NCBI GenBank assembly: GCA_027307335.1
Contig: DAHUXD010000049.1
Span: forward strand, 1-64,000
DNA from: Acidobacteriota bacterium
GTDB lineage: Bacteria; Acidobacteriota; Thermoanaerobaculia; UBA5066; Gp7-AA6
Reading direction: 5' to 3'
Length of the DNA: 64,000 nt
Within the stretch, counting starts at the first letter, position 1. The number at the start of each line of letters is the position of its first letter. Below are positions 24,402 through 25,844 of the stretch, piece by piece. A program made the position numbers and the translations under genes. The notes under the pieces were generated by a model. That model was not told the DNA's origin, searched no databases, and saw only the letters and a program-made list of their open reading frames with translations.

Positions 24402-25844
24402 TCACATCGATTCGACGAACACTCTCACGCGCCGGACCGTCTCGTTGCCCGAGGCGTCGACGGACTTGACGACCAGGACCGACGCGCCGTCGCGCTCGAT
24501 CGTGATCGTCTTCTTGAACGAGCCGTCGGCTTCCACGTCGGCCGGCTCCGCGTTGACCGTGACGACCGCCCCCGGTTCCGTCTTCCCGTATACCAAAAAC
24601 AGGTTCCCCATTTGCTGCGGCGGAAACACCGTCAGGTCGGGCGGGGTCGTGTCCCCCGTGCCCGTCTTGACCGGCTCGGTCATCATCTTGAATCGGCGGA
24701 TCGGACTCCAGTCCGACGTCAGGCCGCCCGCGTCGATCGCGGCGACGCGCCAGAAATAGGAGCCCTCCTTCGAGACCTTCACCCGGGCCGTCGTCTGGAC
24801 GCGGTCGTCGAGGTCCACCTCGGTCGAGTCCGGGACGAAGAGCCGCGACCGCGAGATCTGGAGGCGGTAGCGCGTCGCGTCGGGCACCTTCGACCACTTC
24901 AGCTCCACCTGGTCGCCGGTCTTGAGGTCGTAGATGCGATTGTCGGCGGGCAGCGCCGGCTGCGGCGTGTCCGGGAGGGCGACCTTGGGGGTGAAGGTGC
25001 CCGTCTGCGCGGCGGCCGCGACGCGCTCGCGGCCCTCCAGCGTCACGCTCTCCTTGGCGGTCGACACGGTCGTGCGGCCGCGGAAGCTCGTGACCTCCGT
25101 CTTCTCGCCGGGCGCGACGTCGACCGACACGCGCGAGTCGCGGCTGATCGCCGCCGTCGCCACGTCCGTCGACACGGTGGAGTTCGAGGACGACGTGTAG
25201 ACGTTCACGGCGCCCGACACCATCTTGATCTGACTGCCCGAGGACTCGGACGAGACCGGCTTGCGGCACTCGAACAGCGAGCCGGGCCGGATCGTGTAGA
25301 GGGTGCCGTCGTAGAACATGATCTCGGCCGATCCGGTCTTCCCGGCCTTGACGAAGTCGCCGTCGAAGAGCGCGTCGCGCTGCCGCGCCGGCTCGAACGT
25401 CGAGCGGCCCGCGCGCTGCAGCGACACGTCGCCCTCGACGAAGACGAAGGTGGCGTCGCCCTGCTCGCCCGCGCCCGAGGCGCCGAGCGCCCGTCGCGAG
25501 TAGGACTGCGACTCGACGGCGAGGCGGAAGGCCTCTTCGTAGCGCGCCGCGGCGAAGGACTCGCGGGCGTCGCGGAGAAAATCTTTCGCCTGCGCGGTGT
25601 TCGAGCCCGGGCGCGCCGCGCCCGTCGCCCGCGTCGCGCGGGCGAGCAGCGAGTCGGCCTGGGCGATCTCCGAGCGGGCGCGCTCCTGCGGCGAGCCCCT
25701 GCCCCGAAGGAGCACGAACCAGCCGACACCGCCGGCAACGGCGAGGAGCACCACCACCAGCGCCCACTGACGGATCTTTTGGATCGGAATGACGAACCAG
25801 TCCAGATCCGTCCCCGCCGGCTGGTCGGACTTCCGCTTTCGCAT
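24402..25844 (-). CDS. Membrane-anchored FecR-domain protein with fibronectin-like repeats
   Basis: 480 residues. Order: a short cytoplasmic start, one membrane helix (about 28-46), a helical TPR-like segment (50-125, [15 protein letters not shown]), a FecR domain (about 130-260, [35 protein letters not shown]), a fibronectin-like segment with [19 protein letters not shown] and [11 protein letters not shown], and an immunoglobulin-like end ([16 protein letters not shown]). FecR domains outside TonB systems are common in large periplasmic proteins, and this one is anchored with its bulk in the periplasm. Peptidoglycan or polymer binding is possible but unproven. It is the first gene of the shape operon, with TATAAG upstream and CGGGAG near its ATG. 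Confidence 0.8.

Follow-up and report, generated by a model that had tools for sequence, protein, structure and literature searches.

A FecR-type gene at the head of the mre operon in Acidobacteriota: conserved position, predicted architecture and a proposed role in wall growth

The Rod system is usually regarded as a conserved core to which individual lineages have added little, the cell biology of the Acidobacteriota is little studied, and the way in which wall growth is tuned to the state of the envelope is an open question. In the 64,000-nt stretch of Acidobacteriota DNA analyzed here (hereafter the window; assembly GCA_027307335.1, contig DAHUXD010000049.1), the mre genes are preceded by a gene for a protein with a FecR-like domain, which raises the question of whether such a gene is a regular member of the mre operon in these bacteria and what its product might do there. 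The first half of this question has a firm answer, as the FecR-type gene before mreB is a conserved and real variation of the mre operon. The second half is answered by a proposal built on sequence comparison, in which the protein most likely serves the Rod system as a lineage-specific subunit with an accessory or sensor role. A receptor-like protein whose gene precedes the mre row in 33 of the 53 sampled families, often together with a gene for a c-di-GMP synthase, offers an entry point to the tuning of wall growth, and the gene linkage suggests that many Acidobacteriota may wire envelope signals into the machinery that builds the wall. No description of the linkage between the FecR-type gene and mreB was found in the searched literature, a partly available body of text with subscription journals mostly outside its reach.

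The locus and its predicted product

On the minus strand of the window the genes run in the order fecR-mreB-mreC-mreD-mrdA-rodA, followed by a ribonuclease E/G gene, and ppiD-ruvA-ruvB run divergently from this row (Table 1). The first-pass annotation of this DNA had placed the FecR-type gene at the head of mreBCD-mrdA-rodA, and this holds in full, with the called ORF agreeing exactly and all five downstream genes lying on the same strand. The spacing of 28 nt to mreB that it gave is true with the TTG start of mreB and becomes 13 nt with the GTG start. The FecR-type gene is present as a single copy in the window's genome.

Table 1. Positions of genes, candidate promoter elements and protein parts in the window; gene and element positions are in nucleotides, protein parts in residues of the FecR-type protein.
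Feature	Position	Strand	Remarks
rodA	18865..19962	-	FTSW_RODA_SPOVE
mrdA (PBP2)	19959..21854	-	
mreD	21892..22395	-	start uncertain
mreC	22392..23276	-	
mreB	23348..24388	-	start is GTG 24388 or TTG 24373
FecR-type gene	24402..25844	-	480 aa, ATG start; exact ORF call
Juxtamembrane motif region, residues 14-25	25770..25805	-	numbered with the ATG at 25844 as codon 1
TGCTATAAG, extended -10-like element facing the FecR-type gene	25878..25886	-	42 nt upstream of the ATG
TGCTATAGT, extended -10-like element facing ppiD	25972-25980		mirrors TGCTATAAG
ppiD-like divergent neighbor	26015..27985	+	SurA_N and rotamase domains
Tail	residues 1-20		AlphaFold model secondary structure
TM helix	residues 21-48		AlphaFold model secondary structure
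Helical hairpin	residues 52-122		AlphaFold model secondary structure
FecR/PupR-like beta domain	residues about 131-280		AlphaFold model secondary structure
Fn3 domain	residues about 290-388		AlphaFold model secondary structure
Ig-like domain	residues about 404-477		AlphaFold model secondary structure

A good promoter ahead of the FecR-type gene had also been claimed. By consensus this claim does not stand, as a sigma-70 consensus scan of positions 23000-27500 found no promoter; by comparison with relatives, a promoter of the FecR-type gene is plausible. Of 75 distinct ppiD-fecR intergenic regions (distinct meaning not identical, with close relatives counted apart), 33 have an extended -10 element that faces the FecR-type gene and scores the same as TGCTATAAG or better, versus two with such an element facing ppiD, the TGCTATAGT of the window being one of the two. 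Crude dinucleotide-block shuffles yield such extended -10 elements in 2.2% of cases.

The product of the FecR-type gene is a predicted single-pass membrane protein, and the limits of its domains were read off the secondary structure of an AlphaFold model with a mean pLDDT of 83.6. When the window protein is searched alone, PF04773 (FecR) gives no match at E<=1; matches to this family at E<=0.01 are obtained for 26 of 29 aligned homologs, with the window protein among the three misses, and Glucodextran_B is matched in all 29, the window protein included. The top fold match of the window-protein model is the periplasmic domain of PupR (Z 16.0, rmsd 1.9, 125 residues), followed by BDI_1681 (Z 15.4, rmsd 2.4, 126 residues), and the later matches, at Z 10.9 and lower, are mostly to Fn3-containing proteins over another part of the model. 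An alignment-based sequence search of solved structures returned weak matches only (MtxA, E 0.0025). The FecR label of the first-pass annotation is therefore right as to fold and family, because of the fold match to PupR and the PF04773 matches in the homologs, and the fibronectin/Ig-like end that it described is likewise confirmed by Glucodextran_B in every homolog and by the Fn3 folds among the structure matches.

Conservation of the gene order and the linked GGDEF gene

Conservation near the window was followed in a class sample of 60 genomes, Thermoanaerobaculia-like bacteria and their nearer kin with the window's genome included, in which class was assigned from the record titles of relatives; mreB is found in 59 of these genomes and the FecR-type gene in 49. 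In 48 of the 49 the FecR-type gene lies before mreB on one contig and strand, and in the remaining genome (L046) mreB likewise comes after the FecR-type gene but is cut off by the contig end. The hit-to-hit gaps between the two genes range from 5 to 197 nt in the class, with overlaps of stop and start in some genomes. Genus g17, with 10 genomes in the class sample, lacks the FecR-type gene throughout, and at the six g17 loci that were read (L031-L034, L188 and L189) ppiD directly adjoins mreB. As ppiD and mreB are adjacent in g17, the ppiD-mreB order outlasts the absence of the FecR-type gene. Relatives possessing the FecR-type gene include, from their titles, Thermoanaerobaculia, gp7 Acidobacteria, candidate division B38 and Aminicenantes. 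Downstream of the gene, mreB is found in 29 of 30 titled relative loci, a set that partly overlaps the class and phylum genomes and is thus not fully independent, and the contig of the thirtieth, from Aminicenantes, ends inside the gene. In genome G041 neither mreB nor the FecR-type gene is found, ppiD has no full-length match and PBP2 no close one; it looks as though a single block had dropped out, and an assembly gap is possible there. Assembly gaps are possible also in G115 and G141, which have no mreB and distant PBP2-like matches only; G115 is absent among the FecR matches listed and G141 has a weak match only (E 2.2e-5).

The phylum was surveyed with 99 genomes drawn evenly and anchored on mreB, of which 97 have mreB and 95 loci were scored. 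Linkage was defined as a FecR-type gene on the same strand within 3 kb upstream of mreB. A first list of FecR matches, with four candidates scored per genome, served to pick loci and not for order counts. By this definition the FecR-type gene is linked to mreB in 54 of the 95 loci, a count made with a profile built from class sequences, which distant members may escape, and leaving out G132 and G093, in which the FecR-type gene and mreB are on different contigs. Removal of six weak linked matches of 75-88 bits, five of which cover only the C-terminal part of the profile, brings the figure to 48 of 95. At L187, L192 and L195-L197, the protein directly before mreB has a profile match confined to the C-terminal Fn3/Ig end. 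A GGDEF gene, of the diguanylate cyclase type, lies upstream of mreB within the same distance and on the same strand in 40 of the 95 loci. The two genes occur together at 31 loci, the FecR-type gene alone at 23 and the GGDEF gene alone at 9, and since each occurs alone they are not an obligate pair. Neither gene is found at 32 of the 95 loci, two of which have less than 2 kb upstream of mreB; loci of such short upstream extent are L164, L174 and L176. These 32 loci, together with the absence of the gene from g17, indicate that the mre operon can do without the FecR-type gene. Counted over the 53 families to which all 99 genomes of the phylum sample belong, the FecR-type gene is present in 33, the GGDEF gene in 25 and either of them in 39. 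The first-pass annotation had advised checking the order across Acidobacteriota, in case it were confined to a single strain; what is seen is an order that recurs throughout the class (48 of the 49 genomes having the gene) and across families of the phylum.

The GGDEF gene is distributed unevenly. Among the class loci of the phylum sample, 8 of 10 have the FecR-type gene and none of these 8 has the GGDEF gene. Outside the class the FecR-type gene is found at 46 of 85 loci, and 31 of the 46 also have the GGDEF gene, always closer to mreB. All eight intervening proteins that were checked are GGDEF proteins, with a clear GAF domain in six, a partial one in one and none in one. Examples of a GAF-GGDEF gene between the FecR-type gene and mreB are L102:1539-3146, L104:4423-5928 and L118:4425-5942, and the order of ppiD, GGDEF gene and mreB, with the FecR-type gene not found, is seen at L142, L144, L147, L150, L162, L163, L181 and L186. 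The GG[DE]EF motif is kept in 50 of the 51 GGDEF ORFs of the examined loci, and RxxD, which serves as the I-site rule for GGDEF proteins, stands at the I-site position in 48. When the mreB-linked GGDEF protein of L110, which comes from another family, is compared with the window's genome, it gives partial matches (best E 3.1e-41, over query residues 196-512 at most). Closer matches to L110 (E 2e-58 to 2e-65) are found in four genomes of family f2, on contigs other than that of mreB.

A quickly built MreB tree with 93 rows needs no fewer than 12 changes to account for the FecR label and no fewer than 15 for the GGDEF label, and the labels are clustered yet spread over it, with a total of 24 changes for four groups versus a shuffled mean of 48.1. 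Such a distribution suits an old module with repeated losses, on a tree that cannot separate gain from loss. A tentative extension, which we consider less likely than not, is that an ancestral Acidobacteriota module of a FecR-fold receptor and a GGDEF cyclase was situated in the Rod operon, where envelope state and c-di-GMP would directly set MreB-guided wall synthesis, and that the class of the window kept the receptor and dropped the cyclase.

A pattern-limited scan reached beyond the phylum and gave 6 of 36 loci titled as other groups (L094-L099), none with mreB within the stretch examined. One of these, L094, titled as a Gammaproteobacteria MAG and possibly misbinned, matches the profile over positions 56-477 at 185 bits.

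The juxtamembrane motif and a possible subunit of the Rod system

A short motif, in its strict form [DE]W..[VIF], is located right before the TM helix, as in DWYLISIDR, DWFTVSYRS and DWYYVSKET. It is present in 96 of 117 mreB-linked homologs (51 of 60 in the class and 45 of 57 elsewhere), which are distinct proteins with many close relatives among them and hence not independent. None of 209 controls has it; these are mechanical ORFs whose N-terminal end holds a TM helix, 98 of them ppiD, with non-genes possible among them. Five of the 209 controls contain a bare DW or EW, and accepting that form as well brings the linked homologs to 97 of 117. A relaxed pattern was dropped as a marker, since it matched 48 of the 209 control ORFs. 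Among the motif-less linked proteins, three have no N-terminus and several retain the W without the acid; linked members without the motif include L123, L124, L127 and L138 (families f26 and f72), and in others it is altered. Unlinked homologs with room for the motif carry it in 1 of 7 cases (3 of 6 for the relaxed pattern), and the DW motif is missing from L120 and L134, which are second copies at a distance from mreB, each in a genome with a linked copy as well. A homolog of family f32 (L139) has the DW motif with no mreB within about 3 kb downstream.

Of the protein's parts, the juxtamembrane motif is by inference the strongest candidate for contacting the Rod machinery. This short motif, on the presumed cytoplasmic side, would dock the FecR-type protein on an inner-membrane or cytoplasmic part of the Rod system (MreB, MreD or RodA), and the helical hairpin and the FecR-Fn3-Ig arm would extend into the periplasm, where they might sense or hold peptidoglycan or a partner in the outer envelope. 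Wall insertion would as a result be tuned to the state of the envelope, with both the putative ligand and the presumed direction of signaling forming part of the proposal. In lineages with a co-encoded GGDEF protein, that protein would probably add a c-di-GMP branch to a Rod-linked FecR-type unit; in the class of the window, where the GGDEF gene is missing at the locus, the membrane protein would act without a GGDEF partner. With moderate confidence, we take the product of the FecR-type gene to be an accessory Rod (elongasome) subunit of an Acidobacteriota type. The suggestion of an acidobacterial partner made in the first-pass annotation is well supported as a genomic association with the Rod genes, by the 48 of 49 class genomes and 33 of 53 families, and a link between peptidoglycan synthesis and the envelope, as it supposed, may be what this partner provides.

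The FecR-type protein could instead be a co-expressed but separate envelope protein, encoded at the operon head for growth-coupled expression and working as a periplasmic tether or binder independent of MreB, a reading that we consider rather unlikely. Its arm would suit such a role, as Fn3 and Ig domains are general binding modules, the divergent neighbor ppiD encodes a periplasmic folding factor, and mreB persists in lineages without the FecR-type gene. A merely co-expressed protein accounts less well for a position maintained in 33 of the 53 families, and for a motif that is carried by most of the mreB-linked proteins and is absent from the unlinked second copies.

Comparison with FecR regulators, c-di-GMP systems and RodZ

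FecR-type sigma regulators possess a cytoplasmic anti-sigma domain, whereas only about 20 residues, mostly of low pLDDT, precede the TM helix of the window protein. Identity as a FecR anti-sigma factor was rejected, because the cytoplasmic anti-sigma domain is absent. The FecR/PupR sigma regulators (periplasmic domain CCSSD; PDB 6ovk, 4m0n) have in common with the window protein an anchoring in the inner membrane, predicted for the latter, and a juxtamembrane all-beta fold of the CJM-like kind. The CJM-like part of the window protein is followed by Fn3 and Ig domains; the regulators have a C-terminal STN subdomain, and the aligned range reaches PupR residue 288. The regulators have sigma factor or TonB transducer genes as neighbors, whereas the direct neighbors of the window gene are mreB and ppiD, and those in relatives are mre genes, ppiD or the GGDEF gene.

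These differences bear on a cell-surface-signaling receptor, in which the periplasmic domain would bind the signaling domain of an outer-membrane partner and pass the signal to the GGDEF protein or to proteolysis, with a link to mreB that is regulatory only. The ranking of PupR (Z 16.0) and BDI_1681 (Z 15.4) as the top fold matches and the adjacency of a GGDEF gene in 31 of the 54 linked loci are what such a receptor would predict, and we nevertheless judge it improbable, as the protein has no anti-sigma domain, its gene adjoins mreB and ppiD, with neither a sigma factor nor a TonB transducer gene directly beside it, and the GGDEF gene was not found at any of the eight sampled class loci having the FecR-type gene. 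Furthermore, PupR binds the transducer only with both subdomains, CJM and STN, according to the available part of the source (PMC7186176), and here Fn3 comes after the CJM-like part. A chance or assembly-specific adjacency without meaning, for which the patchy absence of the FecR-type gene and nothing more could be cited, retains practically no probability, being already refuted by the recurrence across many genomes and families.

For the preferred Rod-subunit reading, control of wall growth or cell size by c-di-GMP is known elsewhere via other proteins, as described in the available portions of two reports (PMC6107284, PMC9927289). In the RgsP-RgsM system of Rhizobiales, a protein with c-di-GMP domains and a cell-wall-binding protein likewise act on wall growth (PMC6107284, in the part available). 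RgsP is there described as one 7TM receptor with PAS, GGDEF and EAL domains and RgsM as a putative metallopeptidase, both in the setting of polar growth, and homology with the proteins studied here is not claimed (PMC6107284). The CdgK-CdgS system of Anabaena likewise includes a GGDEF protein required for normal cell size via c-di-GMP; its input is two-component, and the accessible portion of the report mentions neither a FecR-type protein nor an mre linkage (PMC9927289).

The FecR-type protein is encoded in the mre gene row and conserved across species, in the manner of a Rod component. RodZ, a single-pass membrane protein, acts with MreB according to partly available sources, and for the window protein a partnership with MreB is proposed. 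The two are distinguished by their domains, as the window protein matches neither HTH_25 nor RodZ_C at E<=1. The window's genome has a separate RodZ at L224:498-1265 with both HTH_25 and RodZ_C, and HTH_25 proteins are found in 58 of 60 class-sample relatives. Replacement of RodZ by the FecR-type protein was rejected on these grounds; since RodZ is also present, there is no gap in the Rod machinery for the FecR-type protein to fill.
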